Assembly (NCBI GenBank): GCA_012840075.1 | Contig: DUMC01000011.1 | Span: 1 to 53,156, forward strand | Reading direction: 5' to 3' | Source: Clostridiaceae bacterium | Lineage (GTDB): Bacteria; Bacillota; Clostridia; Acetivibrionales; DUMC01 | DNA length: 53,156 bases | Shown here: piece after piece, positions 19,309 to 34,589 of the stretch | Position numbering within the stretch: position 1 is the first letter of the stretch | How the letters are laid out: each line of letters starts with the position of its first letter | Notes under the pieces: model-generated | Databases searched by the model: none | The model's input: only the letters and a program-made list of their open reading frames with translations | Told to the model about the DNA's origin: nothing | Translations under genes and position numbers: made by a program

Positions 19309-19791
19309 ATGGGGAGTATAATATGGATCCTGATAATGGCTCTGATTATTATCTCTGATCAGATTACCAAACATATAGTTTCAACCAATATTAAGGTAGG
19401 GGAATTGATACCTGTAATAAACAACTTCTTTTATATTACTTATCATACAAATACAGGAGCTGCCTGGGGAATATTACAAGATAAGCTATATATTCTCATA
19501 CCTTTAACTATTGTGTTTTCTTTAGTCATGTTTTACATGTTATTTAAAACAGAGCATAAACTATTAAAGATTGCATTATCATTTATACTTGGAGGAGCAA
19601 TTGGTAATTTGATTGACAGGGTAGTAAAAGGTAGTGTGGTAGATTTCCTTGACTTTTATTTCGGAAAATTTCATTTTCCAACCTTCAATATAGCTGACTG
19701 TTTTATTGTAATTGGAACAATTTTATTAGGAACATATATAGTACTTTATGGTAAGGAACCGGAAGAAGAAGAAAAGAAGGAAAGCGCATGA
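19309..19791 (+). CDS. lspA: Lipoprotein signal peptidase (signal peptidase II)
   Basis: LspA is the inner-membrane aspartyl protease that removes lipoprotein signal peptides. The 160-aa protein has four hydrophobic segments. The catalytic pair is D103 in GNLIDR and D130 in FNIADCF, and NTGAAWGI is the conserved loop near residue 49. The ATG follows AAAGGAGGAAAG. Its last codons overlap the start of the downstream pseudouridine synthase by 4 bp, a conserved pairing in Firmicutes. Confidence 0.97.
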   Translation: MGSIIWILIMALIIISDQITKHIVSTNIKVGELIPVINNFFYITYHTNTGAAWGILQDKLYILIPLTIVFSLVMFYMLFKTEHKLLKIALSFILGGAIGNLIDRVVKGSVVDFLDFYFGKFHFPTFNIADCFIVIGTILLGTYIVLYGKEPEEEEKKESA

Positions 19792-20723
19792 AAGACTTAA
19801 AGTTGGTTTCAAATACTGACGGGGTTAGAATAGATTCATGGCTTGCAAAAGAATTAGAAGGTTATTCTCGGTCTTATCTGCAAAAGTTAATAGAACAGGA
19901 TTTAGTTTATGTAAATGGGAAAAAAATCAAGGCAAATTATAAAGTGAAAAAAGGTGATGAAATTTCCATAACCATACCTGAACCGGAGACGCTGGACATA
20001 GAACCGGAAAATATTCCGTTGGATATACTCTATGAAGATGAGCACATTTTAGTCGTTAATAAACCTAAAGGCATGGTAGTACATCCGGCAGCAGGAAATT
20101 ATTCAGGTACTTTGGTAAACGCGATTATGAATTATTGCGGCGACAATCTGTCAGATATTAACGGAATTATACGGCCGGGGATTGTCCACAGACTGGACAA
20201 GGATACTTCAGGAGCTTTGATTGTAGCCAAAACTAATGAAGCTCATAAAATTATATCTGAAAAACTGAAAGAACATGATATAACACGCATATATATTGCA
20301 TTAGTCAAGGGAATAATAAAGGAAGACAAGGGTAAAATTGATTTACCTATCGGAAGACATCCGATTGACAGGAAAAAGATGGCCGTAAACACCAAGAACG
20401 GTAGGAAAGCAGTTACACACTATAGAGTGCTTGAAAGATTTGATGACTCAACATATGTGGAGTTAAGCCTTGAAACCGGACGAACTCACCAGATAAGAGT
20501 TCATATGTCGTATATAGGACATCCTGTTATAGGAGATGAAGTATATGGAGGGAGGCAAAAAGGCTATAATTTAAAGGGACAGGCTTTGCATGCAAAATGT
20601 ATAAAATTCCATCATCCAATTACAGGAGAGTATATGCATATTGAGGCACCGATACCTGATTATTTTGAAAAGTTGCTAAAAGAAAAAAGAAGAAGAATGT
20701 CAAATAATAAAAATTTTATATAG
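19788..20723 (+). CDS. rluD: RluD-type 23S rRNA pseudouridine synthase
   Basis: A 311-aa RluA-family pseudouridine synthase. An N-terminal S4 RNA-binding domain (about 13-60) precedes the catalytic domain, with motif HRLDKDTSG whose D137 is the nucleophile. RTHQIRVHMSYIGHPVIGDEVYGG further supports the family. The exact target positions cannot be assigned from sequence, since RluD-, YlyB- and RluB/C-like paralogues share these motifs. It is translationally coupled to lspA by the ATGA overlap. Its TAG stop coincides with the -35 of a candidate pyr-operon promoter. Confidence 0.9.
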   Translation: MKDLKLVSNTDGVRIDSWLAKELEGYSRSYLQKLIEQDLVYVNGKKIKANYKVKKGDEISITIPEPETLDIEPENIPLDILYEDEHILVVNKPKGMVVHPAAGNYSGTLVNAIMNYCGDNLSDINGIIRPGIVHRLDKDTSGALIVAKTNEAHKIISEKLKEHDITRIYIALVKGIIKEDKGKIDLPIGRHPIDRKKMAVNTKNGRKAVTHYRVLERFDDSTYVELSLETGRTHQIRVHMSYIGHPVIGDEVYGGRQKGYNLKGQALHAKCIKFHHPITGEYMHIEAPIPDYFEKLLKEKRRRMSNNKNFI

Positions 20724-20749
20724 ACATTAATTTTCATATATGATATCAT
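20721..20749 (+). promoter_or_regulatory. Candidate promoter of the pyr leader
   Basis: TAGACA (20721-20726) and TATCAT (20744-20749) are separated by 17 bp. Both boxes deviate from consensus, but the position upstream of the PyrR-responsive leader fits. Confidence 0.35.
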
Positions 20750-20815
20750 AAACAAGAATTAAGAACTAATATCATAATGGAAAGATATCAAAAATAAAAT
20801 ATAAAAACAATTAAT

Positions 20816-20907
20816 GTAGACCTTTATTTAGTATGGTTTCGTGAGGTTGCAAAGGTGTTAATTGTGATCAAAAATTGCTTCTTGCATTAATGCAGAGAAG
20901 CTTTTTT
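20816..20907 (+). promoter_or_regulatory. PyrR-responsive attenuator leader
   Basis: The transcript upstream of pyrR contains GGTTTCGTGAGGTT at 20835-20848. This matches the PyrR-binding consensus ARUCCNGNGAGGYU at the NGNGAGG core. It is enclosed by CCTTT (20821-20825) and AAAGG (20851-20855), which can pair. An intrinsic terminator follows: GCTTCTTGCA and TGCAGAGAAGC (20877-20901, one bulge, TTAA loop) and then T6. By analogy with Bacillus, UMP-bound PyrR would stabilise the binding loop and favour termination. Pairing of the antiterminator is inferred. Confidence 0.75.
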
Positions 20908-20923
20908 AAAGTTTACAAAGATA

Positions 20924-20980
20924 AAGGGGCGCACCCTTTCCCCATCCCATTGATACTTACGGGAAAAGGAATGTCCCTGA
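20924..20980. repeat. Degenerate hairpin repeat in the pyrR leader
   Basis: GGGGCGCACCCTTTCCCC and GGGAAAAGGAATGTCCCT form an imperfect inverted repeat across a 16-nt loop. The block AGGAATGTCCC also occurs in both hairpins at 3-104, so this may be a decayed copy of that family lying between the attenuator and pyrR. Confidence 0.4.
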
Positions 20981-21009
20981 TCTATAAAAATATAGGGAGA
21001 GTGGAAAAT

Positions 21010-21564
21010 ATGGAAAATATGGTTGAAAAAGCTCAAATCATGAATGAATCGGAAATTTCAAGAGCTATTTCAAGAATAGCTCATGAGATCATTGAAAAGC
21101 ACAAAGGTGTTGACGACGATTTGTTGATTATAGGAATACATCGACGTGGTGTGCCGCTTGCCGAAAGGATCGCAAAAAAAATACAGGAAGTGGAAAACAA
21201 ACCTGTTAAAGTCGGCAAGTTAGACATAACTTTTTACAGAGATGATTTGAGTACCTTGGCAGAACATCCTGTTGTTAATCGAACTGAAATAAATTGGCCG
21301 GTGACTAATAAAAAGATAATCTTGGTAGATGATGTACTTTATACCGGCAGGACAGTTAGAGCGGCCATCGATGCAATTATGGATCTTGGCAGACCCAGCA
21401 TGATACAGCTGGCTGTATTGATAGATAGAGGTCATAGGGAATTACCTATTAGAGCTGATTATGTAGGAAAGAATGTTCCTACTGCAAGGAACGAAGTCAT
21501 TCATGTAAAACTAGTGGAAATTGACGGTGTCAATAAGGTAGTAATATCACAAAAGCTTGATTGA
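21010..21564 (+). CDS. pyrR: PyrR bifunctional pyr-operon regulator / uracil phosphoribosyltransferase
   Basis: PyrR binds the leader RNA of pyr genes when UMP is high and also has uracil phosphoribosyltransferase activity. The PRPP-binding motif [14 protein letters not shown] is at residues 106-119, and [14 protein letters not shown] and DITFYRDDL are family motifs. With the ATG at 21010 the protein is 184 aa, close to the usual 180. AGGGAGAG upstream supports this start; an ATG nine bases later is possible. A much longer upstream reading frame exists but would run through the terminator hairpin of its own leader, so I reject it. Confidence 0.94.
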
Positions 21565-21576
21565 ATTACTACGAAC

Positions 21577-21607
21577 AGTAAGGATTAAGTTCTATCCTTA
21601 CTTTTTT
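21577..21607 (+). terminator. Terminator between pyrR and pyrB
   Basis: AGTAAGGAT and ATCCTTACT form a 9-bp stem followed by TTTTTT. I find no PyrR-binding loop between the pyrR stop and this hairpin, so it may be a constitutive partial terminator rather than a second attenuator. Confidence 0.75.
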
Positions 21608-21666
21608 AATGTAATTTTAAAGTTTTTACTGTATTTTAAAATTAAATTTAAAAGGAATGGGAAGTA

Positions 21667-22608
21667 ATGAGTCTGAAGGGCAAGGATTTATTGGGTCTTA
21701 GGCATCTTACAAAAGAAGAAATAGAGTACATACTCGACATTGCAAAGACAATGAAACTTGTGTTGCTGTCAAACAATAAAAAGACTCCACACCTGCAGGG
21801 AAAATCAGTTGTTACCCTGTTTTATGAAAACAGTACAAGGACAAGGCTTTCTTTTGAGCTGGCATCTAAATATATGGGTGCCAGCTCTGCCAACATTGCT
21901 GCTTCATCAAGCAGTGTTGCAAAAGGAGAATCTCTTATTGATACTGCACGTACAATAGACCAAATGGGGACGGATGTAATTGTAATCAGGCATCCTATGG
22001 CAGGTGCACCTGCACTGATTGCCAAAAATGTAAAAGCAGCGGTAATTAACGCAGGTGACGGAATGAATGAACATCCGACCCAGGCCCTTCTTGATATTTT
22101 TACTATAATAGAAAAGAAGGGGTCTCTTAAGGGACTCAAGGTAGCAATTATAGGTGATATATATCACAGTCGAGTTGCAAGAAGTAATATTTGGGGTATG
22201 ACGAAGTTAGGAGCCGAAGTCTGCGTTGCAGGACCTGCAACCTTATTACCTCCGCAACTTGAGATGACGGGAGTAAAAGTATATAGTACTGTGCAAGAAG
22301 CGCTAATAGATGCTGATGTTGTAATGGGACTCAGAATTCAATTAGAAAGACAAAAAAGCGGTTTATTTCCTTCATTGAGAGAATATTCACGGTTTTTCGG
22401 TCTAGATGAGAAACGTTTAAAACTTGCTAAAAAAGATGTACTTTTACTGCATCCAGGTCCTGTAAACAGGGGTGTTGAATTAACAACGTCAATAATTGAC
22501 GGTGAGCATTCACTAATAAACGAACAAGTTACAAACGGCGTAGCAGTTAGAATGGCACTATTATATTTATTAACCAGAAAGGGTGATAGTATTGAAGCTG
22601 TTAATTAA
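21667..22608 (+). CDS. pyrB: Aspartate carbamoyltransferase catalytic subunit
   Basis: PyrB condenses carbamoyl phosphate with aspartate, the first committed step of pyrimidine synthesis. At 313 aa it fits the catalytic chain. The carbamoyl-phosphate-binding motif STRTRLSFE, the loop [22 protein letters not shown] near residue 138 and the C-terminal [11 protein letters not shown] are all present. No regulatory chain (pyrI) follows, as usual in Firmicutes. Its 3' end overlaps the ribosome-binding site and start of pyrC. Confidence 0.97.
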
Positions 22609-23881
22609 AAACGGTCATGTAGTCGATGCCAGGACAAAAAGAGACGGAATATTTGATATATTGATAGATGAAGGGAAAATAGTTGAAATAGGTAAGGATC
22701 TGGAAGTAGGCAGTAATTGCGACTACATTGACGCAGCAGGAAAGTATGTTATACCCGGTTTAGTCGATGCTCACTGTCACTTAAGAGATCCTGGATACGA
22801 ATATAAAGAGGATATTGAAAGCGGCTCTGCCAGTGCAGCTATGGGCGGTTTTACCTCAATTGCATGTATGCCCAATACAAATCCCTGTATTGATAATCAG
22901 GAAGTGGTCAAATATATTATTAACAAGGCAAAACAGGAAGCTTATGTTAATGTTTATCCTATTGGAGCTATAACAAAAGGTCAAAAAGGTGAAGAACTTG
23001 CAGAAATCGGGGAACTTAAATTTGCAGGTGCAGTAGCAATTTCAGATGACGGCAAGCCGGTTAAAAGTTCATCTTTAATGAAAAAAGCCCTTCAATATGC
23101 TTCTATGTTTGATATTACGGTAATATCACATTGCGAAGACTTGGATTTGGTAGAGGACGGAGTGATGAATGAAGGATATCAATCAACTGTTATGGGATTG
23201 AGAGGTATTCCGTCCGTTGCAGAATCCATAATGGTAGCAAGGGATCTCTTGCTGGCAGAATACACAAATACACCTATACATATTGCCCATGTCAGTACGG
23301 AAACCTCTGTTGAACTAATAAGGTTTGCCAAAAAAAGAGGTGTAAAAGTAACTGCAGAAACATGTCCTCACTATTTCTCATTAACGGAAGAAGCATGTGA
23401 AGGTTTTAATACAATGGCTAAGGTAAACCCACCTTTAAGAACAAAGAAAGATGTTGAAGCAATTATTGAAGGATTAAAAGACAGTACAATTGATGTTATA
23501 GCAACGGACCATGCTCCTCATCATGAGGATGAAAAAAATGTTGAGTTTAACATGGCAGCAAGTGGAATGGTAGGTTTTGAAACCGCACTTTCACTAGTTG
23601 TTACCAATCTTGTAAATCCAGGTATACTTACAATAGAACAAGTAGTGGAAAAGATGTGCCTGAATCCTTCACGTATTCTAGGTTTAAATAAAGGTGTGCT
23701 GGAAGTAGGCAGAACGGCAGATATTACAATATTTGACGTAAATGAGGAAAGAATAATAGATGTAAATAAATTTAAATCAAAAAGTAAGAATTCTCCTTTT
23801 GATAAATTTAAATTAAAGGGTGTAGTATATCATACAATAGTTAACGGAAAAGTTGTGGTAAGAGAAAAAGTTTTACTATAA
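22592..23881 (+). CDS. pyrC: Dihydroorotase
   Basis: PyrC cyclises carbamoyl-aspartate to dihydroorotate. This 429-aa type I zinc amidohydrolase shows the metal-binding [10 protein letters not shown], the HCED and HIAHVST histidines and the ATDHAPHH motif. The CMPNTNP substrate segment is also clear. TTG at 22592 was chosen because AAAGGGTG lies about 7 bases upstream and gives the usual [12 protein letters not shown] start; a GTG three codons earlier is less well placed. It overlaps pyrB by 17 bp. Confidence 0.96.
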
Positions 23882-23916
23882 TTTATTGTGCCGTAAAAAA
23901 GAAAGGGGGCTGTGTA

Positions 23917-24858
23917 ATGTTTATTGACAATTTAGTTGATAAAATAAAAGAAAAGAATAATCCAACCGTAGTCGGTCTCGATCCTAGAATTGAATATGTG
24001 CCGCATTCGATCAAAGAAAAGGCTTTTAATACCTATGGGAAAAATTTGAAGGGGTGTTCGGAAGCTATATTTGAATTTAATAAAAGAATAATCAATGCAA
24101 TAGCTGATATAGTACCGGCTCTGAAATTACAGCTTGCATATTATGAATTATATGGAATATACGGCATGGAAGTCCTTGCTAGGACCATAAATTACGGACG
24201 GGGTAAAGGGTTGCTGATTATTTGCGACGGTAAAAGAAATGATATTGGAAGTACGGCAGAAGCTTATTCTTCAGCCTATTTGGGGAAGGTTAACATAGAT
24301 GAAGGCATTCAGGAAACCGTCTTTGACGCAGATGCGTTAACGGTAAATCCTTTTTTAGGTTTTGACGGAATAAATCCATTTATTAATGACTGTAGCAAAT
24401 ATGGAAAAGGTATATTTATCCTGGTAAAAACATCAAATAAGTCATCCGGTCAATTACAAGATCTTTTAACTCATGAAGGCAAAAGCGTTTATGAAGTAAT
24501 AGCGGAACTGGTAAATGAATGGGGTAAAAACCTTATTGGTAAATATGGGTACAGCAGCGTCGGAGCAGTAGTAGGAGCTACATATCCGAACCAGGCAAAG
24601 ATATTAAGAAAAATCATGAAAAACTCATACATTCTTGTACCTGGATACGGAGCTCAGGGTGGAACTGCAAGGGATGTTGTACATTCCTTTAACTGTGACG
24701 GACTGGGAGCTATAATAAATGCATCCAGAAGCATAATGTGCGCTTATAAATCAGATACTTGGAAAGAAAAATACAGTGAAGATGAGTTCGATATTGCAGC
24801 AAGAGAGGAAGCAATCAAGATGAGAGACGATATAAACAAAGCACTGGAATCAAAATGA
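23917..24858 (+). CDS. pyrF: Orotidine 5'-phosphate decarboxylase
   Basis: PyrF decarboxylates OMP to UMP, the last step of the pathway. The protein is 313 aa, matching the longer subfamily 2 enzymes rather than the 240-aa type. The catalytic D104-K106 and D109 tetrad region CDGKRNDIG is intact, as are VVGLDPR at 18-24 and the phosphate-binding VPGYGAQGG near residue 248. ATG with GAAAGGGGG upstream. Confidence 0.95.
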   Translation: MFIDNLVDKIKEKNNPTVVGLDPRIEYVPHSIKEKAFNTYGKNLKGCSEAIFEFNKRIINAIADIVPALKLQLAYYELYGIYGMEVLARTINYGRGKGLLIICDGKRNDIGSTAEAYSSAYLGKVNIDEGIQETVFDADALTVNPFLGFDGINPFINDCSKYGKGIFILVKTSNKSSGQLQDLLTHEGKSVYEVIAELVNEWGKNLIGKYGYSSVGAVVGATYPNQAKILRKIMKNSYILVPGYGAQGGTARDVVHSFNCDGLGAIINASRSIMCAYKSDTWKEKYSEDEFDIAAREEAIKMRDDINKALESK

Positions 24859-24923
24859 CAATAAATTCAAAGTCCCAGAGGCATTGTGATGTGTAAGATG
24901 TAAAATAGCAAAGGAGATGAGTA

Positions 24924-25742
24924 ATGCAACCGGTTTTATTCGAGAAAATTGTCCATAATGAAGAACTTGTACCCAGCATATTTAAATTGGTTTTTAAATC
25001 GGAATATATAGCACAAAATGCAAAACCGGGTCAATTCGTAAATATAAAATGCTGCGAAGGGATAAACACAATTCTCAGAAGGCCAATAAGCATTTGCGAT
25101 GTAGACAGAGATAATAATTACGTTACCATAGTCTATCAAAAACGCGGAAAAGGGACGGAATATCTTTCTCGAGCAAGAGAAGGGGACACCCTTAATGTTA
25201 TTGGTCCCCTTGGAAGATCTTTTGAAATGTCAGACCGATATAAAAATATAGCTGTTGTCGGAGGAGGAATAGGTATCTTTCCGTTATTGTTCCTTCTAAA
25301 GGAAAGCAAAACTATGAAAAAAACAGCATTTATTGGCTTTAGGAACAAGGAAAATTACGTACTTATAGATGAATTTGAAAGATATGCAAATGATTTGTTC
25401 ATATCTACGGATGACGGGAGTTTTGGATATAAAGGTTTTATCACGGATTTATTCGAGAATGGAATTGCAAATGAAAAATTTGATATAATATATACATGTG
25501 GTCCTGAGGCAATGATGGAAAAGGTTGTGAAAGCATCTTACCAAGCAGGGATACCTTGCCAGGTAAGTCTTGAGCAGAGGATGGGATGCGGTATAGGAGC
25601 CTGTCTCGCCTGCGTATGCAGAATAAAGATAATCTCGGAATCAGAAAAGGAAAATAGTAATAAAAGCTGGCACTACAAGAGAGTTTGCAAAGACGGACCT
25701 GTATTTTGGGGTCACGAGTGGTATGAATGGGGCCAGGCTTGA
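24924..25742 (+). CDS. pyrK: Dihydroorotate dehydrogenase electron-transfer subunit
   Basis: PyrK carries FAD and a [2Fe-2S] cluster and passes electrons from class 1B dihydroorotate dehydrogenase to NAD+. The FAD-binding motif RRPISICDVD is near residues 52-61, GGGIGIFPLLFLL is the nucleotide-binding turn, and the cluster motif CGIGACLACVC lies near 222-232 with a further cysteine in YKRVCKDGPVF. Length 272 aa. It directly precedes pyrD, its partner. Confidence 0.95.
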   Translation: MQPVLFEKIVHNEELVPSIFKLVFKSEYIAQNAKPGQFVNIKCCEGINTILRRPISICDVDRDNNYVTIVYQKRGKGTEYLSRAREGDTLNVIGPLGRSFEMSDRYKNIAVVGGGIGIFPLLFLLKESKTMKKTAFIGFRNKENYVLIDEFERYANDLFISTDDGSFGYKGFITDLFENGIANEKFDIIYTCGPEAMMEKVVKASYQAGIPCQVSLEQRMGCGIGACLACVCRIKIISESEKENSNKSWHYKRVCKDGPVFWGHEWYEWGQA

Positions 25743-25774
25743 AAAGTTGAATTATTGTTTTGGGGTGAAACTTA

Positions 25775-26692
25775 ATGACTGATAGTCTGTTAAAAGTTGA
25801 AATCGCAGGTATTAAACTTAAAAACCCTGTTATAGCCGCATCCGGTACATTTGGATTTGGTAGGGAATATTCGGAGTTTATCGATTTAAATAAATTGGGA
25901 GGTATTTCAGTTAAAGGACTTACATTGAAACCTAGAGAAGGTAATAAACCTCCCAGAATAGCAGAGACTCCTGCCGGAATATTGAATAGTATCGGATTGC
26001 AGAATCCCGGCGTTGATGCTTTTATTAAAGACGAACTGCCATTTCTTAAGCAATTCGATACTGCTATTATTGCCAATATTGCAGGCAACACCATAGAAGA
26101 ATATTGCGAACTGGCAGAAAAACTTTCAGATACTGATATAGATGCATTTGAACTTAATGTATCATGTCCAAACGTAAAAGAAGGATGTGTTGCCTTTGGC
26201 AACACAGTTGAAGGAATATCGAAAATTACAAAGCAGGTAAAAAAATATTGCAAAAAACCGCTTATTGTAAAGTTAACACCTAATGTAACAGATATTAAGG
26301 AAATCGCAATGGCGGCAGAAGCTAACGGTGCAGATGCAATCTCATTGATAAACACTATTTTAGGAATGGCTATAGATATTCACAAAAGAAGACCTATACT
26401 TGCGAATAATTTCGGAGGGTTGTCAGGACCTGCAGTCAAGCCCATAGCGGTGAGAATGACCTATGAAGTGGCAAGTGTTGTAAAAATACCGGTAATAGGA
26501 ATGGGCGGAATAACATCGGGAGATGATGCCATAGAGTTTTTCCTTGCAGGAGCTTCAGCAGTAATGGTAGGAACCTGGAATTTTGTTAATCCTTATGCTT
26601 GTATTGAGATTATTAACCAGATAAAAAGTTACTTGACCATGTATAAATACAAGAGTATATATGATATAATAGGAAAAATACAGTTAAACTAA
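25775..26692 (+). CDS. pyrD: Dihydroorotate dehydrogenase, class 1B catalytic subunit
   Basis: PyrD oxidises dihydroorotate to orotate using FMN. The active-site cysteine is C131 in [10 protein letters not shown], the signature of class 1B enzymes that work with PyrK. FMN-binding motifs NSIGLQNPG and [12 protein letters not shown] are present. Length 305 aa is normal. Confidence 0.97.
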
Positions 26693-26770
26693 CGAAAAAT
26701 CAGTTAAATTAATAATATAAACAAATAAAACAACTAAGTTAAATAGAAAAACATTCAAACAGGTGAAGCT

Positions 26771-27454
26771 ATGGTAACGAGGTTAATTTTAGTAAGACAT
26801 GCCGAAGCTGAAGGAAATGTAAACAGAGTGTTTCACGGCTGGACGGACTCTGATATAACTGAAAAAGGCCATATGCAGGCAAAATTAGTGGCAGAACGTT
26901 TGAAAAATTTTAAAATCGACGTTCTATACTCCAGCAGTCTTAAGAGAACACTTAAAACTGCTGAGTATATTTCAAAAGCAATCGGATTGCCTATCATAAG
27001 AACAGATAAATTAAAAGAGATTAACGGTGGTGACTGGGAAAACGTACCTTGGAGTATATTACCAAAAAAATGGCCCGAAGCATATGATTCATGGGAAAAT
27101 AAACCATATATTCATCAAATGCCAAACGGCGAATCCATGAAAGAATTTCAAGAAAGGCTTGTTGATGAAGTAGAAACTATTATTAATAACAATAAAGGCA
27201 AAATTATTTGTATAGTAACCCACGGCACGGCAATCAGAGTTCTTACATGTTATTTTCATCACTGTAATCTGGAAAATATTAACGAAATAAATTGGGTGGA
27301 AAATACATCTATCACGATAGTTGATTATAAAGACGGTGTATATAAGGTAGTGGTTGAAGGGGATTCTTCGCATTTGGAGCAACATATGAAAACTTTGGAA
27401 AACCAAGACTGGTGGCTGGAAAAAGCTACAGAACTATATAAAAAGAAAGAGTGA
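26771..27454 (+). CDS. Histidine phosphatase family protein
   Basis: A 227-aa phosphoglycerate-mutase-like phosphatase. The RHG-type motif is VRHAEAEGN, with the phosphorylated histidine at H10, and the second histidine is in THGTAIRV. SSSLKRTLKTAEYI and the ENTSIT segment are family features. Relatives include cofactor-independent phosphatases such as alpha-ribazole phosphatase and PhoE, and the substrate cannot be assigned. It lies within the pyr transcript between pyrD and an OPRT-like gene. A nucleotide-related phosphatase role is possible but is inference. Confidence 0.88.
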   Translation: MVTRLILVRHAEAEGNVNRVFHGWTDSDITEKGHMQAKLVAERLKNFKIDVLYSSSLKRTLKTAEYISKAIGLPIIRTDKLKEINGGDWENVPWSILPKKWPEAYDSWENKPYIHQMPNGESMKEFQERLVDEVETIINNNKGKIICIVTHGTAIRVLTCYFHHCNLENINEINWVENTSITIVDYKDGVYKVVVEGDSSHLEQHMKTLENQDWWLEKATELYKKKE

Positions 27455-27459
27455 GAATA

Positions 27460-28380
27460 ATGAATATGTTAGGCAATAAACTCATAGAATGGCTTTTTGA
27501 AACCAATGCACTAAGAGTAAGCAGCGCAGATAATCCTTTTTGGTATACTTCCGGAACGATAGGACCGTATTATATAAACACACATTTTTTATACGGAAAC
27601 GAAGAAAAAGCAAATAAACTTTTGGAATTTATAGATAATAAAAAGGATGAAATATATAATTTCCCAATAGAGCTTACAAATGTAATGTGGGAGAATTACG
27701 AAAAAGATGCTATTTATAAAGGTGTGATTGAGCAATTATGTACTTTCATAAAAGATACCGTCGGGTTGGATGAAATTGATTATATTTCCGGCGGGGAAAG
27801 AAGGGACTGGTTTTTTTCCTTCTTGACCGCAAAAATACTCGGTAAACCCCACTTAACCATTTATAAAGATTTAAGCATTACTGAATATAACAATAACCAT
27901 GTTAGAAAGGTCAAAAACATTAAAGATATTGATGAAAATGAAAATGAAAATAATAGTATTGGTGACGATAATGTGACAAACATAAAAGGCAAAAAGGTTT
28001 TGCATATTACTGATCTTGTTACTGAAGCATCAAGTTTTGAAAGGTCATGGATACCTGCCGTAAAAAATGTCGGCTGGAATATTAAATGGAGCATTGCTAT
28101 TGTTGACAGAAACCAAGGAGGTAAAGAATTACTCCAGAGGCTGGGAGTTAATTTATACTCAATTGTTAATATAGAAGAATATACATTTGAGAAAGCCCTT
28201 AAACTTGGATTAATAAATGATGCGCAATATAAGATGATCATAGATTATATAAATGACCCAAAAGGTTCAATGAGAAAGTTTTTACAAGAAAATCCTGAAT
28301 TTTTACAAAAATCCCTGTCAATGGGAGGAAAAATAGCTGAAAGAGCAAAACTATGTATTGAAAAGAAAATATATTTTTAA
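27460..28380 (+). CDS. Divergent orotate phosphoribosyltransferase-like protein
   Basis: A 306-aa protein that resembles orotate phosphoribosyltransferase but is about 100 residues longer than classical PyrE. PyrE-like features are LRVSSADNPFWYTSGTIGPYYIN at 18-40 (a PyrE N-terminus pattern), ISGGERRDWFFS at 109-120, a PRPP-loop-like stretch ITDLVTEASSF at 183-193, and VDRNQGG at 216-222. The PRPP loop lacks the usual TTGGS. A low-complexity acidic insert (DENENENN) sits at about 158-165. No classical pyrE occurs in this otherwise nearly complete pyr operon, so this gene may supply the step; that is inference. ATG at 27460 was chosen; the reading frame opens slightly earlier with a GTG overlapping the previous stop. 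Confidence 0.72.
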   Translation: MNMLGNKLIEWLFETNALRVSSADNPFWYTSGTIGPYYINTHFLYGNEEKANKLLEFIDNKKDEIYNFPIELTNVMWENYEKDAIYKGVIEQLCTFIKDTVGLDEIDYISGGERRDWFFSFLTAKILGKPHLTIYKDLSITEYNNNHVRKVKNIKDIDENENENNSIGDDNVTNIKGKKVLHITDLVTEASSFERSWIPAVKNVGWNIKWSIAIVDRNQGGKELLQRLGVNLYSIVNIEEYTFEKALKLGLINDAQYKMIIDYINDPKGSMRKFLQENPEFLQKSLSMGGKIAERAKLCIEKKIYF

Positions 28381-28407
28381 AATATATTTTAAAGGTGAGA
28401 TGTATAA

Positions 28408-29796
28408 ATGTCAAAAAACTTTGACACTCAAACAGAATTTATAAAAATAATAAGAAATGCAAATGAAGGTTTAAATAAAAAATACCACATAACAACTTTC
28501 GGATGCCAGATGAATGAAAATGATTCCGAAAAGCTTGCCGGCATGCTTACCCAAATGGGCTATGAAGAAACCTCTGATATTAACGAAAGTGACATAATAA
28601 TATATAATACTTGTTGCGTTAGGGAAAATGCAGAATCAAAAGTTTTCGGGCATCTGGGTACTTTAAAAAGTTTAAAAAAAGAAAAACCTGATACAATAAT
28701 AGCAGTCTGCGGTTGTATGGTACAACAAGAACATATAGTTGAAGAGATAAGAGAAAAATATCGAAATGTGGATTTGGTTTTCGGTACTCATAATCTCTAT
28801 AGATTTCCTGAACTGTTGTATACCGTCTTAAGCACACGTGATCATTTGTATGATATACAAAATATTGACGGTGAAATAGTTGAAGGTGTGCCGGTAGTAA
28901 GAAAAGACGGAATAAAAGCATGGGTAACCATCATGTATGGTTGCAATAACTTTTGTTCCTATTGCATCGTACCTTATGTAAGGGGAAGAGAGCGAAGCAG
29001 AAGTGTTGAAGATATAATTAATGAAGTTATAATGCTGGCACAACAGAATTATAAAGAAATTACGCTTTTAGGACAAAACGTAAATTCTTACGGCAAAGAT
29101 TTAGGTGGAAGAGGTGCGAGTTTTCCTGAGTTGCTTTATAAATTAAACGAAATAAAAGGTATAGAAAGAATACGATTTACAACTTCCCATCCTAAAGATA
29201 TATCAGATGATTTAATAAAAGCAATTAAAGAGTGCGAGAAGGTTTGTGAACATCTTCATTTGCCTCTCCAGTCAGGAAGCACGAAAGTATTAAGAGAAAT
29301 GAACAGGAAATATACAAAAGAACAATACCTTGAAATTGTCCATAAAGTGAAAGAGACTGTTCCGGGAATAGCACTTACAACGGATATTATCGTAGGTTTT
29401 CCCGGGGAAACGGAGGAAGATTTCGAAGATACACTTGATGTGGTAAGAAAAGCTGAATTTGATAATGCATTTACTTTCATTTATTCCGAAAGAGTAGGAA
29501 CACCTGCAGCAAAAAGAAAAGATCAGGTTCCTGATGAAATAAAGAAGACAAGGTTTGAAAGGTTATTGGAAGTTCAAACTGATATAAGCAAAAAAATTAA
29601 CGATAAATTATTAGGTGCTGAATTGGAAGTTCTTATAGAGGGACCAAGTAAGAAAAAATCTGATATTTATACCGGCAGAACGAGAACAAATAAAATCGTC
29701 AATTTTGTAGGTGATAAATCTTTAATTGGCCAACTAAAAACGGTAAAAATAGTAAAGGCTCAAACCTGGTATCTCGAAGGGAAGTTATTATTGTAA
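28408..29796 (+). CDS. miaB: tRNA-2-methylthio-N6-dimethylallyladenosine synthase MiaB
   Basis: MiaB is a radical-SAM enzyme that adds the 2-methylthio group to i6A37 in tRNA. The N-terminal domain binds the auxiliary cluster through C33, C69 and C103. The radical-SAM motif CNNFCSYC gives C179, C183 and C186. A C-terminal TRAM domain (about 390-460) binds RNA. Length 462 aa. It requires i6A made by MiaA, encoded about 6 kb downstream. Confidence 0.97.
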   Translation: MSKNFDTQTEFIKIIRNANEGLNKKYHITTFGCQMNENDSEKLAGMLTQMGYEETSDINESDIIIYNTCCVRENAESKVFGHLGTLKSLKKEKPDTIIAVCGCMVQQEHIVEEIREKYRNVDLVFGTHNLYRFPELLYTVLSTRDHLYDIQNIDGEIVEGVPVVRKDGIKAWVTIMYGCNNFCSYCIVPYVRGRERSRSVEDIINEVIMLAQQNYKEITLLGQNVNSYGKDLGGRGASFPELLYKLNEIKGIERIRFTTSHPKDISDDLIKAIKECEKVCEHLHLPLQSGSTKVLREMNRKYTKEQYLEIVHKVKETVPGIALTTDIIVGFPGETEEDFEDTLDVVRKAEFDNAFTFIYSERVGTPAAKRKDQVPDEIKKTRFERLLEVQTDISKKINDKLLGAELEVLIEGPSKKKSDIYTGRTRTNKIVNFVGDKSLIGQLKTVKIVKAQTWYLEGKLLL

Positions 29797-29815
29797 GTTA
29801 ACTCAAACAGCGGAT

Positions 29816-29853
29816 GAATTCAGTGGAGGTGTTGCAATCCTCCATTGAATTTT
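29816..29853 (+). terminator. Possible terminator after miaB
   Basis: GAATTCAGTGGAGG and CCTCCATTGAATTT form a stem of about 13 bp with one mismatch. The following T-tract is short (TTTTAC), so termination may be partial. Confidence 0.55.
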
Positions 29854-29900
29854 ACATCAATTCTCTTTTAAAAAGTGAGAAACTGCTTGATTTTTGGAGT

Positions 29901-29955
29901 TTAATACATATTGTATTAATTCTTGTGTGAAAACATATATAATTAATTCTTGTGT
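29901..29955. repeat. Short inverted and direct repeats upstream of mutS
   Basis: TTAATACA and TGTATTAA form a perfect dyad at 29901-29919. ATTAATTCTTGTGT occurs twice, at 29915-29928 and 29942-29955. They lie just upstream of the mutS ribosome-binding site and could bind a regulator, though AT-rich repeats also arise by chance. Confidence 0.4.
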
Positions 29956-29986
29956 TAAATGCATCCATATAGAAAGAGGTCTACAA

Positions 29987-32599
29987 ATGGAAAAACTAAC
30001 ACCGATGATGCAACAATACTTAGAAATAAAAAAGCAATACAAGGATTGTATACTTTTTTTCAGGCTGGGTGACTTTTATGAAATGTTTTTTGAAGATGCT
30101 GAAATAGCATCCAGAGAATTAGAAATAACTCTTACAGGAAGAGATTGCGGGTTAGAAGAAAGAGCTCCGATGTGCGGAGTTCCGTACCATTCCGTTAATT
30201 CATACATAGCAAAGTTAATAAATAAAGGATATAAAGTAGCTATATGCGAGCAAATGGAAGACCCGGCTTTAGCTAAAGGTATTGTTAAAAGGGAAGTAGT
30301 TAGGGTCATAACACCCGGAACGGTTACGGAATTGTCAATGCTGGATGAAAAAACGAATAATTTCCTATTATCCGTGTATAAAAATAAAGACTTATACGGT
30401 ATTGCAGCAGTAGATATTACAACAGGAGAGTTTTTTACTACAAGGATTATATGGGGTAATACTTTTTCAAAATTATTGGATGAAATTGCAAAGTATTCTC
30501 CATCTGAAATTATTGTAAACCTGGAATTATATAGCGATATCTCAAAGAAGAACGAAATAGTATCAAGGTTTAATACATACATTAACAAGCTTGATGATGA
30601 TTACTTCAGGCTTGATAATTGCATAGAAAAGATAAATTCTTATTTTGAAGATAAAAAAATTGAAGAATTGTCCGTTAATGCCTGCGGAGCATTGCTGACT
30701 TATTTGGAAGAAACTCAGAAAGTAAGCCTGACCCATATTAGGAAAATAGAAATCTACCAGATAGAAGAATATATGACTTTAGATGTCTCAACAAGACGGC
30801 ATCTGGAGCTTACTGAAACAATGAGAGATAAAACCAGGAAGGGTTCGTTAATATGGGTAATGGATAGAACCGTTACTTCAATGGGGGGACGTACTCTCAG
30901 AAAATGGCTTGAGCAACCTTTAATCAGGGTGGCGGATATTCAGGAGAGACTTGATGCTGTTGCTGAGCTAAAAGATAAATACATGGTACGAATGGAAACC
31001 AGGGAGCACCTAAAGAAAGTTTACGATATTGAAAGATTAATGAGCAAGATTATAATAGGAAATGTAAACTGCAGGGATCTAATAGCTTTGAGAGATTCCA
31101 TCAGACAAATACCACAGATTAAGGATTTGCTCAAAAATTGTACTGCAAAGTTAAATGTTAAGAACTATGAAGGGCTGGACACCCTGCAAGATGTACACGA
31201 CCTAATAGAAAAGTCCATTATTGACGACCCGCCGACAACAGTTAAAGAAGGCGGAATAATAAAGTCAGAATTCAACGAAGAATTGGCAAGGTTGAGGCAG
31301 GCAGCAACGAACGGCAAAAAATGGATTGCTGAACTTGAAGCAAAGGAAAGGGAAAAAACAGGTATAAAAAATCTTAAAGTAGGATTTAACAAGGTTTTTG
31401 GTTATTATATAGAGGTTACGAAATCAAATTATTCATTGGTTCCCGATAATTACATAAGAAAGCAGACTCTTGCCAATTGTGAAAGATATATAACCCAAGA
31501 ACTCAAGGAACTTGAAGACACTATATTAAACGCAGAACAAAAAAGCGTAGAACTTGAATATAATATTTTCCTGGAAATTAAAGATGAAATAGCTTCACAT
31601 GTAGAAAGAATAAAAAACACTGCATCTTGTTTAGCGGAAATTGACGTAATTTGTTCACTGGCAGAATTAGCAGACAGGGAAAATTATTGTATGCCTGAAG
31701 TAGATGAAAGCGGAGTAATCATGATCGAAGAAGGCAGACATCCGGTAGTGGAAAAAATGATGGTTTCCGGTGCTTTCGTACCCAACGATACTTACCTTGA
31801 TACAGCAGAGAACAGGGTAGCTATCATCACCGGTCCAAACATGGCCGGAAAATCAACCTACATGCGTCAGGTTGCCCTTATCGTACTGATGGCTCAGGTC
31901 GGGAGCTTTGTTCCGGCAAAATCAGCAAGAATAGGTGTTGTAGATAAAATTTTCACCCGCGTGGGAGCAACGGATGATCTGGCTTCCGGTCAAAGCACTT
32001 TTATGGTAGAGATGACAGAGGTAGCAAACATACTTCAAAATGCGACAAAAAACAGTCTTATTATACTTGATGAAGTGGGAAGAGGTACAAGTACTTTTGA
32101 CGGGTTAAGTATAGCGTGGGCTGTAATTGAGTATATATCCAAGAAGAATATAATAGGGGCAAGAACCATGTTCTCAACCCACTACCATGAGCTTACGGGG
32201 CTTGAAGGTAAAATAGAAGGAATTAAAAATTACAGAGTTACGGTGGAAAAAAAAGGAGATGAAATTATTTTTTTAAGAAAGATAGTACGAGGAGGAGCCG
32301 ATGAAAGTTACGGCATTGAGGTGGCAAAACTTGCAGGACTTCCGAAAGCAGTAATTGACAGAGCCCATGAAATACTCAAGCAGTTGGAAGAAGCTGATCT
32401 TTCCAAAAAAGAAGTAAGACAAAGAAAAAACAAAAAGCCATTGGAAGGACAGATAGATATATTTGAATATGATAGTTTTAACAGGCGATACGAAGAATTG
32501 GTAAACGAAATTAAAAATGTAGATGTGACAACAATAACGCCAATCGAAGCTTTAAATATACTATATAAGTTACAACAAAAAGTGACAAAGGGGGAATAA
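29987..32599 (+). CDS. mutS: DNA mismatch repair protein MutS
   Basis: MutS recognises mismatches and small loops and recruits MutL. The 870-aa length is standard. The mismatch-binding domain carries the FYEMFFEDA motif with the conserved Phe-x-Glu, near residue 30. The ABC-type ATPase has Walker A ITGPNMAGKSTYMRQ near 612-626 and Walker B IILDEVGRGTSTFDG. THYHELTGLEG also fits. ATG at 29987 follows AAAGAGGT. A longer in-frame extension upstream is rejected because homologues start at MEKLTPMMQQYLE. Confidence 0.98.
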   Translation: MEKLTPMMQQYLEIKKQYKDCILFFRLGDFYEMFFEDAEIASRELEITLTGRDCGLEERAPMCGVPYHSVNSYIAKLINKGYKVAICEQMEDPALAKGIVKREVVRVITPGTVTELSMLDEKTNNFLLSVYKNKDLYGIAAVDITTGEFFTTRIIWGNTFSKLLDEIAKYSPSEIIVNLELYSDISKKNEIVSRFNTYINKLDDDYFRLDNCIEKINSYFEDKKIEELSVNACGALLTYLEETQKVSLTHIRKIEIYQIEEYMTLDVSTRRHLELTETMRDKTRKGSLIWVMDRTVTSMGGRTLRKWLEQPLIRVADIQERLDAVAELKDKYMVRMETREHLKKVYDIERLMSKIIIGNVNCRDLIALRDSIRQIPQIKDLLKNCTAKLNVKNYEGLDTLQDVHDLIEKSIIDDPPTTVKEGGIIKSEFNEELARLRQAATNGKKWIAELEAKEREKTGIKNLKVGFNKVFGYYIEVTKSNYSLVPDNYIRKQTLANCERYITQELKELEDTILNAEQKSVELEYNIFLEIKDEIASHVERIKNTASCLAEIDVICSLAELADRENYCMPEVDESGVIMIEEGRHPVVEKMMVSGAFVPNDTYLDTAENRVAIITGPNMAGKSTYMRQVALIVLMAQVGSFVPAKSARIGVVDKIFTRVGATDDLASGQSTFMVEMTEVANILQNATKNSLIILDEVGRGTSTFDGLSIAWAVIEYISKKNIIGARTMFSTHYHELTGLEGKIEGIKNYRVTVEKKGDEIIFLRKIVRGGADESYGIEVAKLAGLPKAVIDRAHEILKQLEEADLSKKEVRQRKNKKPLEGQIDIFEYDSFNRRYEELVNEIKNVDVTTITPIEALNILYKLQQKVTKGE

Positions 32600-32612: not shown

Positions 32613-34589
32613 ATGGGCAAAATAATAACTTTAGACGAAAACACAATAAACAAAATAGCAGCAGGAGAAGTAATTGAAAGACCGGCATCAGTCGTAAAAG
32701 AACTGATGGAAAACAGTATTGATGCAGGTGCTAAAAGAATCTCCGCGGAAATAAAAAAAGGTGGGATTTCCCTCATCAAAGTTACCGATGACGGATGCGG
32801 TATTGAAGAAGATGATGTTCAAATTGCTTTTGAGAGGCATTCAACCAGCAAGATAAAGCATTCCGAAGATTTGTCATCCATATTGACTCTGGGTTTTCGT
32901 GGTGAAGCTTTAGCCAGCATTGCTGCTGTTTCAAAGGTCGAAATGGTAACCAGAACTGCAAATAAAAGCTATGGGATTAATATTTTTGTAGAAGGCGGTA
33001 AAATCCAAGGATTAAAAAAGGTAGGGGCTCCCATAGGCACAACAGTCACGGTAAGAGAACTCTTCTATAATACACCTGCAAGGTTTAAGTTTCTTAAAAA
33101 AGATTCAACTGAAACCGGATATGTTTCAGATATTATAAGCCGTATTGCTTTAGGCAATCCTGATATATCGATTAAATTTATAAACAATGGTACAGTCGTA
33201 ATCCATACCCCCGGGAATAACGACTTGTTAAGTACAATTGCAAGTATTTACGGTACTGAAATAATCAGGTATCTTTCGGAGATCAATTACCGGGAAGAAT
33301 ATATAAAAATAACCGGATACGCCGGTTCAGCAGAAATTTCAAGGGGCAACAGAAACCATCAATCCGTATTTGTAAACGGAAGATATATCAAAAGCAAGAT
33401 TATTACATCTGCAATAGATGAAGCTTATAAAACTATTTTGATGAAAGGAAGATTCCCATTTGTTGTATTAAAGGTAGAAATTAATACAGCAGAAGTAGAT
33501 GTAAATGTTCACCCAGCTAAACTGGAAGTTAGATTTTCAAATGAAAATGATGTGTTCAGAGCAGTCTATAATGCTGTTATCAGCAGTTTGGTTAAAGGTG
33601 CAAAAATTAGTGAATATAACGGTAAAACTAGAATTAATAGCATCCCGGTTTCCGCTGAGACGCGCGATACTATCAAAGAAAAACAACAAACTATTGACTT
33701 ATACGATCAAAATCGTGGATATATAAATAAAAATAAAGAATTACGGGAAAGCAAAGATTTACTAAATGACAGCAATAATGCTTGTTCTTACGGCGGTAAT
33801 GATCTTTATGTTTACGACAAAGATAGTCACGCTAAAGACATGGAGGCTGGCGATTATAGATTTGACAATAATTATAACAACAATAATTTTGACAATAATT
33901 ATGGCAGAAATTATGATAATGAGTATGACAATGATGAATATGAAAATAATGAATATGAGAATGGTGAATATGGCAAAGGCGAATATGGCAACGATATAGA
34001 GCAAATCAGAAATTCCAAAATCGTCGGGCATTTATTTTCCACTTACATTTTGCTTCAAAAAAATGATTGTATATTTATTGTCGATCAACATGCAGCTCAT
34101 GAGCGTATTATGTTTGAGAGACTGAGGGAAAAATTCAAAAATAATCAAAATTTGGCTCAGTTTTTAATAACACCTGTATTGATTGAATTAACTTATCAGG
34201 AATTGCAGCAAGCTTTGGAAAACAAAAATTTACTGAACAAATTAGGTTTTATTTTTGAAGAGTTTGGCAATAATTCTATACTGCTAAGGTCTATGCCATA
34301 TAAAGATCAAGAAGGTGATGAAAAAGAAGTATTTTTTAAGGTACTTGACTGTATAACAACATACTCAGGTAAGTTAGACAATGGATTAAAACTGGAAGAA
34401 GAAGCTTTATATCAAATAGCATGTAAAGCTGCGATAAAAGCTAACCTGAATCTGGACGACAGGGAAAAATATGAGTTGATAAATGAATTAATCAAGCTTG
34501 ATAATCCTTATACATGTCCGCATGGCAGACCGACGATTATAAAAGTATATAAAGATGACATAGAAAAAATGTTTAAAAGGAAGGTATAA
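32613..34589 (+). CDS. mutL: DNA mismatch repair protein MutL (endonuclease type)
   Basis: MutL couples MutS to strand removal. The GHKL ATPase shows SIDAGAKRI, VTDDGCGI and GFRGEALASIAAV. The C-terminal domain retains the endonuclease motif DQHAAHERIMFE near residues 490-501 and the CPHGRP metal-site motif near 640, so this is a nicking MutL as in organisms without MutH. The 658-aa protein has an unusual linker at about 400-463, made of repeated Asn, Asp, Glu, Tyr and Gly triplets (for example NNYNNNN and ENNEYENGEYG). The gene follows mutS by 13 bp in one operon. Confidence 0.97.
   Translation: MGKIITLDENTINKIAAGEVIERPASVVKELMENSIDAGAKRISAEIKKGGISLIKVTDDGCGIEEDDVQIAFERHSTSKIKHSEDLSSILTLGFRGEALASIAAVSKVEMVTRTANKSYGINIFVEGGKIQGLKKVGAPIGTTVTVRELFYNTPARFKFLKKDSTETGYVSDIISRIALGNPDISIKFINNGTVVIHTPGNNDLLSTIASIYGTEIIRYLSEINYREEYIKITGYAGSAEISRGNRNHQSVFVNGRYIKSKIITSAIDEAYKTILMKGRFPFVVLKVEINTAEVDVNVHPAKLEVRFSNENDVFRAVYNAVISSLVKGAKISEYNGKTRINSIPVSAETRDTIKEKQQTIDLYDQNRGYINKNKELRESKDLLNDSNNACSYGGNDLYVYDKDSHAKDMEAGDYRFDNNYNNNNFDNNYGRNYDNEYDNDEYENNEYENGEYGKGEYGNDIEQIRNSKIVGHLFSTYILLQKNDCIFIVDQHAAHERIMFERLREKFKNNQNLAQFLITPVLIELTYQELQQALENKNLLNKLGFIFEEFGNNSILLRSMPYKDQEGDEKEVFFKVLDCITTYSGKLDNGLKLEEEALYQIACKAAIKANLNLDDREKYELINELIKLDNPYTCPHGRPTIIKVYKDDIEKMFKRKV

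Follow-up and report, generated by a model that had tools for sequence, protein, structure and literature searches.

A divergent PyrE-like protein as the probable orotate phosphoribosyltransferase of a Clostridiaceae bacterium and most of its order

Results

The pyr cluster and its last gene

The window, i.e., the whole stretch of 53,156 nucleotides analyzed, is contig C69 of a host genome of 3.78 Mb (193 contigs, 97% complete). Its pyrimidine genes run in the order pyrR-pyrB-pyrC-pyrF-pyrK-pyrD and are followed by a histidine phosphatase gene (hisP), an open reading frame (ORF) resembling orotate phosphoribosyltransferase (OPRT) and miaB-mutS.

20875..21564 (+): pyrR (NCBIfam), coordinates of the listed ORF; the true start probably lies downstream of the listed one
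21667..22608 (+): pyrB (NCBIfam)
22583..23881 (+): pyrC (NCBIfam)
23917..24858 (+): pyrF, OMP decarboxylase (NCBIfam)
24924..25742 (+): pyrK (NCBIfam)
25775..26692 (+): pyrD (NCBIfam)
26771..27454 (+): histidine phosphatase (Pfam His_Phos_1, E 2e-58), a member of the pyr operon in several lineages
27460..28380 (+): divergent OPRT (PyrE-like) gene, 306 aa, called from the ORF, its family, the OPRT profile match and the fold of the relative L021

The best NCBIfam models for pyrR, pyrB, pyrF, pyrK and pyrD pass their curated cut-offs, and pyrC passes TIGR00857. The region between pyrR and pyrB contains a terminator-like hairpin and T-run at 21577-21602 (+), which would fit PyrR attenuation. Within 19500-30200, Rfam gave no element at or above its gathering score, and promoter-like sites were not more numerous than in shuffled sequences. 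Many of the relatives examined have carA-carB between pyrF and pyrK; in the window the pair is absent at this place (24858-24924). The histidine phosphatase at 26771-27454 is CobC/PspA-like and follows pyrD in several lineages. In Clostridium thermocellum it is kept in the pyr operon although the OPRT-like gene sits elsewhere, and in two genomes one open frame runs through hisP and the OPRT-like gene (L028 of G054, 556 aa; L099 of G043, 512 aa).

Sequence features of the OPRT-like protein

The OPRT-like ORF is intact. It begins with an ATG at 27460, five bases after the end of the hisP ORF at 27454, and ends with a stop codon at 28378-28380; an alternative GTG start at 27451 would give 309 aa. 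The following features were assigned within it.

27535..27591 (+): hood motif of the N-terminal part, PFWYTSGTIGPYYINTHFL, which aligns with PFxWASGxxSPxYCDNR of Bacillus-type PyrE
27595..27735 (+): approximate position of an insert of ~45 residues compared to classical PyrE (alignment), helical in the L021 model
27790..27807 (+): GGERRD, aligned where PyrE has its pyrophosphate-binding loop (GPAYKG or GTSTAG)
27859..27870 (+): IYKD, the last conserved motif ahead of the flexible-loop position
27931..27954 (+): low-complexity insert DENENENN within the flexible-loop position, specific to this sequence
28009..28035 (+): altered PRPP loop TDLVTEASS (family consensus ADLITEASS)
28102..28122 (+): VDRNQGG, aligned to LDREQGG of human OPRT
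28261..28377 (+): C-terminal extension reaching past classical PyrE, with helical structure in the L021 model

Database models recognize this protein poorly. The 306-aa sequence has no significant match in Pfam, and no phosphoribosyltransferase (PRT) match was obtained in Pfam for any of the 32 family members of alignment A2. All NCBIfam pyrE matches are sub-threshold, with 33.5 bits for TIGR00336 (curated cut-off 106.8), 34.9 bits for NF001729 (245) and 18.6 bits for TIGR01367 (150.25); the best one spans residues 176-268.

A preliminary description of this DNA, made from the letters alone, had pointed to a PyrE-like N-terminal part, to GGERRD and VDR motifs, to an altered PRPP loop and to a low-complexity ENENEN insert. 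All of these were located in the ORF: PFWYTSG..GPYYIN at residues 26-40, GGERRD at 111-116, ENENEN at 159-164, TDLVTEASS at 184-192 and VDRNQGG at 215-221. With the exception of ENENEN they are family-wide and thus not due to chance. The insert is real and belongs to this sequence only, as none of the 31 other A2 rows has a letter in the columns of residues 158-165; residues 138-176 form a stretch of 39 here, compared to 18-22 residues in the other A2 members. A long low-complexity stretch rich in N, Y, E and D in MutL (ORF 32613-34589) resembles the ENENEN run, and such inserts may be a trait of the host genome. An extra C-terminal domain, also proposed before, holds for the last ~40 residues; the remainder is the ordinary C-terminal part of long PyrE proteins, and the alignment to the pyrE model reaches residue 268.

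Homology and fold

A profile built from the 32 members was compared with PDB sequences, and its top three matches were the PyrE of B. cenocepacia (4ohc, E 8.6e-8), human OPRT (E 1e-6) and the PyrE of B. anthracis (E 2.3e-5). Using hhalign, Bacillus-type PyrE aligned with E 1.2e-9 over 205 columns (query 3-251), giving a profile collinear with OPRT in which the family has ~45 extra residues after the hood and ~40 at the C-terminus. Apt (E 1e-6) is nearer to the family than E. coli-type PyrE (E 9e-6), but its alignment is shorter. PyrR gave a probability of 3.2% (E 0.014), so similarity to PyrR was not established.

AlphaFold predicted the window protein with a pLDDT of 38.6, and the structure comparison was therefore made with the relative L021 (43% identical), modelled from four sequences with a pLDDT of 82.6 and a pTM of 0.81. 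Among the best 1000 Foldseek chains, in which the last ~30 residues of the model remain uncovered, the best solved match is S. pyogenes OPRT (Z 19.8, rmsd 2.2 Å, 197 residues). The first 22 rows are all OPRT or UMPS (Z 19.8 to 14.9, rmsd 2.0-2.8), and the first APRT appears at Z 14.5. Thus, the model of the relative has a type I PRT fold with an N-terminal hood, to which OPRT is closest; the relation to type I phosphoribosyltransferases on which the preliminary description depended is borne out at this level.

Active-site motifs

Motifs were counted in 72 distinct members chosen by HMM; this set replaced one picked by the presence of GERRD, which was circular. In the alignment, the hood motif SG..SP of Bacillus- and E. 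coli-type PyrE reads SG..GP in the family, and the pyrophosphate loop GTSTAG/GPAYKG is exchanged for GGERRD, with GERRD present in 71/72 members. [IVL][YFW]K[DN] precedes the flexible-loop position in 69/72. The motif KD[HYF]G, which carries the catalytic Lys103, was found in 0/72 distinct members, while the catalytic loop motif is present in 31/31 Bacillus-type and 28/29 E. coli-type sequences of classical PyrE. In L114 and L115 the loop pattern caught the earlier IYKD, and the two loop lengths obtained for them among the 72 are artefacts. The altered PRPP loop noticed in the window protein extends to all members counted: instead of the two-acid motif [ED]D..T.G, all 72 members have one acid followed by [AGS]SS, and the residue before the Asp is A in 60, S in 7, T in 2 and C in 1 (not measured in 2).

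According to passages of PMC10087573, the mobile-loop residue Lys103 of E. coli OPRT contacts the PRPP pyrophosphate in the adjacent subunit; acetylation of this lysine lowers kcat 150-300-fold, and the modified enzyme fails to complement a pyrE deletion. Because modification of Lys103 is so damaging there, the loss of KD[HYF]G is a real departure from classical OPRT. This is softened by two proteins that do not keep the Lys103 feature, the C. botulinum enzyme, in which Lys103 is not conserved according to the same passages, and the pyrE_Therm copy L054. A large number of polar residues show no or almost no variation among 32 members, a pattern that would fit an enzyme better than a decaying copy.

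Distribution and exclusion of classical PyrE

Relatives of the family occur in 55 of the 58 genomes of the order, a count that takes in incomplete copies at the ends of contigs as well as a fragment of 37 residues (G015). OMP decarboxylase is found in 57/58 and TIGR00336 over cut-off in 1/58. Among the three genomes without the family, G051 carries a pyrE_Therm gene directly after pyrF (TIGR01367, 223.6 bits against a cut-off of 150.25), and the pyr contigs of G024 and G049 stop inside pyrK and pyrD, just ahead of the place where the gene is expected. As only these 3/58 genomes are without the family, a Fisher test at the level of the order is not significant (p 0.10).

At the level of the class, 391 genomes were tallied by hand, scoring classical PyrE as TIGR00336 with E <= 1e-12. 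The family profile matched 73 genomes and 68 were kept, including a 56-position fragment (G084); five matches (G415, G132, G373, G275, G137; E 2e-6 to 8e-5) were dropped as weak cross-hits. One genome has both genes, 67 have the family only, 276 PyrE only and 47 neither. Classical PyrE is accordingly missing in 67/68 family carriers and found in 276/323 non-carriers (Fisher p 5e-43, without correction for relatedness). Both states occur in different genomes of the same taxonomic family in four cases, with the divergent family and classical PyrE in G351 vs G071 and others (f31), G080 and G113 vs G139 (f40), G406 vs G081 (f41), and G122, G149, G173, G278 and G313 vs G095, G196, G258 and G295 (f55).

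The sole genome of the class set with both genes is G019, which belongs to the order. Its classical PyrE is an extra, stand-alone copy (L053, C2:197327-197788, TIGR00336 122.9 bits) next to a gene that resembles NUDIX by eye, and its divergent copy sits in the pyr operon. Ten of the 47 genomes with neither gene (G114, G217, G218, G226, G238, G257, G263, G270, G402, G411) belong to taxonomic families with carriers; therefore, losses or assembly gaps also occur. Two of the family matches in the class contain an internal stop codon (G113, G286). In a phylum sample of 398 genomes, matches with E <= 1e-10 were restricted to the own genome and four others, all of family f152. No relatives of the 306-aa protein were found in plasmid and viral collections.

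Gene neighborhoods were inspected in 24 hand-picked family loci, with the window as an additional case. The gene lies directly after pyrD or pyrD-hisP in 14/24 (L021, L022, G019, G020, G028, G034, G063, G072, G140, G243, G286, G351, G389, G422), as it does in the window, and near pyrD without following it directly in 3/24 (G113, G172, G406). It is found beside miaB, apart from the pyr operon, in one (G014), and no pyr gene is in view in six (L020, G068, G080, G122, G149, G491), where some contigs are short. Classical pyrE is located <= ~1 kb downstream of pyrD in G071, G081, G196 and G051. Within f31, the divergent and the classical genes occupy a like position.

OPRT candidates in the own genome and in C. 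thermocellum

The absence of a classical pyrE from a cluster containing pyrB, pyrC, pyrF, pyrK and pyrD, which the preliminary description had noticed, extends from the window to the assembly: neither TIGR00336 nor TIGR01367 has a match over cut-off in the own genome (97% complete, 193 contigs). The nine PF00156 places of this genome were named by NCBIfam as PyrR, Hpt, Prs, Prs-like, ComF, Apt, Apt-like and two PurF, where ComF and one shorter PurF are named from best matches scoring under cut-off. Given the state in relatives, a pyrE hidden in an assembly gap is unlikely.

C. thermocellum ATCC 27405 (G014) has its genome in one contig, which contains a 1853-aa scaffoldin frame and a cohesin whose sequence equals that of a CipA chain at 140/140 residues. 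Eight PRT places exceed the Pfam cut-off (Hpt, PyrR, Prs, Apt, PurR, ComF, Upp, PurF); a ninth PF00156 row, L087 (E 0.109), falls under it and was left unnamed. Beyond these places, the search found just the family member as a candidate for OPRT in this genome. In strain DSM 1313, taken here as agreeing with the searched strain ATCC 27405, passages of PMC5779722 report that pyrF deletion yields a 5-FOA-resistant uracil auxotroph, in which plasmid-borne C. bescii pyrF brings back prototrophy and 5-FOA sensitivity. FOA is converted to 5-FOMP by PyrE before PyrF acts, as stated in a passage of PMC5058259. Since the 5-FOA phenotype needs OPRT, the experiments described in these passages mean that OPRT activity exists in C. 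thermocellum, whose completed genome offers the family member as the one good candidate.

Discussion

We conclude that the 306-aa protein is very probably the OPRT of the organism and belongs to a divergent clade of PyrE; we infer its activity, substrate and residue roles. This agrees with the structurally unusual OPRT that the preliminary description had suggested, and it is now supported by the lack of another pyrE, the gene position, the exclusion of classical PyrE, the L021 fold and the 5-FOA genetics of C. thermocellum. Because the protein fails the sequence tests for classical PyrE, we speak of a divergent OPRT clade and not of an ordinary PyrE.

The gene would encode the enzyme for orotate + PRPP -> OMP + PPi in this organism and most of its order, as a divergent clade closest to Bacillus-type PyrE and standing where classical PyrE is absent. 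In the proposed mechanism, built on a type I PRT core, the N-terminal hood (YTSG..GPYYIN) would close over orotate, and the loop ADLITEASSYERAW, which has a single acid where the classical loop has two, would hold PRPP. In place of the lysines of the classical loop, the arginines of GGERRD, perhaps with K136, would hold pyrophosphate, and a different loop would stand in for the mobile KD[HY]G loop. We lean, with moderate confidence, towards a rebuilt active site in which the Lys103/His105 mobile loop and one PRPP acid have been lost and GGERRD, K136, H182 and an SSYERAW segment carry out catalysis; the insert and the C-terminal extension may change the oligomeric state or regulation.

Loss of two catalytic OPRT motifs in 72/72 members is what still speaks for a regulator derived from OPRT, which the preliminary description had named as the other option: a PyrE-derived pseudoenzyme or pyr-operon regulator, with OPRT activity supplied by another, unrecognized protein. 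The same operon does contain a PRT-derived regulator, pyrR; on the other hand, PyrR is thereby already present beside the OPRT-like gene. Moreover, searches of the own genome and of C. thermocellum turned up no further OPRT candidate, and the strong mutual exclusion with classical PyrE would be unexpected for a regulator. We thus regard this explanation as very unlikely.

The profile comparison could also be taken to indicate a PRT for another base, orotate being handled by a promiscuous Apt, Hpt or PyrR/UPRT, as Apt profiles align better (E 1e-6) than E. coli-type PyrE and 15/32 members have a weak match to an Apt model. However, the gene is positioned in the pyr operon and its product has an OPRT-like hood and C-terminal part, the structural scores of the L021 model favor OPRT (19.8) over APRT (14.5), and it is PyrE that is excluded, whereas both the own genome and C. 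thermocellum have Apt. This makes a different substrate highly improbable. We give equally little credence to the protein being one half of a two-part OPRT which receives its loop residues from a partner, e.g., the adjacent histidine phosphatase. Classical OPRT does take its mobile loop from the neighboring subunit (a passage of PMC5430920), hisP is adjacent in several lineages, and the shared open frames in G054 (556 aa) and G043 (512 aa) join the two. Nevertheless, the gene has no hisP separating it from pyrD in G351, G140, G286, G422, G389, G063, G072 and L021, and the two are apart in G014.

If the divergent OPRT is what we propose, a pathway gap is closed in a Clostridia order that includes the biofuel organism C. 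thermocellum, for a gene that the curated pyrE models score far under threshold and for which Pfam shows no phosphoribosyltransferase match. A pyrE-like locus for counter-selection would be offered for these organisms. Were the enzyme active, it would also allow a natural test of the extent to which catalysis needs the much-studied OPRT loop, because modification of Lys103 nearly abolishes activity in E. coli. In the freely accessible literature searched, including passages of PMC3478167, PMC4172971, PMC5779722, PMC10087573, PMC5430920, PMC3566075 and PMC5058259, the protein was not found named as an OPRT; it may already be annotated or described elsewhere.

Among known systems, the PyrE of the Bacillus/Streptococcus/Burkholderia type (3m3h, 4rv4, 2aee, 3dez, 4ohc, 9e5g) is most similar, sharing a collinear hood, PRT core and C-terminal part and the same gene neighborhood downstream of pyrD. 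The family differs from it by the ~45-residue insert after the hood, the ~40-residue C-terminal extension, the missing KD[HY]G loop, the one-acid PRPP loop and GGERRD in place of GTSTAG/GPAYKG. The OPRT domain of human UMP synthase (2wns), the best Foldseek row, aligns at the DRxQGG motif and the PRPP-loop region. In humans, OPRT and OMP decarboxylase form one fusion protein, which retains the classical loop as KDYG. The pyrE_Therm OPRT (TIGR01367), in the one copy examined (L054 of G051), also lacks KD[HY]G and is a precedent for an OPRT without this loop; it differs in keeping the two-acid VEDVITTGGS and in having no insert. Apt is similar in the type I PRT core, but scores lower than Bacillus-type PyrE and the OPRT structures and has no counterpart of the C-terminal part. 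The enzyme activity itself is old; what is notable is the rebuilt active site that we propose, together with the gap filled in a cellulolytic order.
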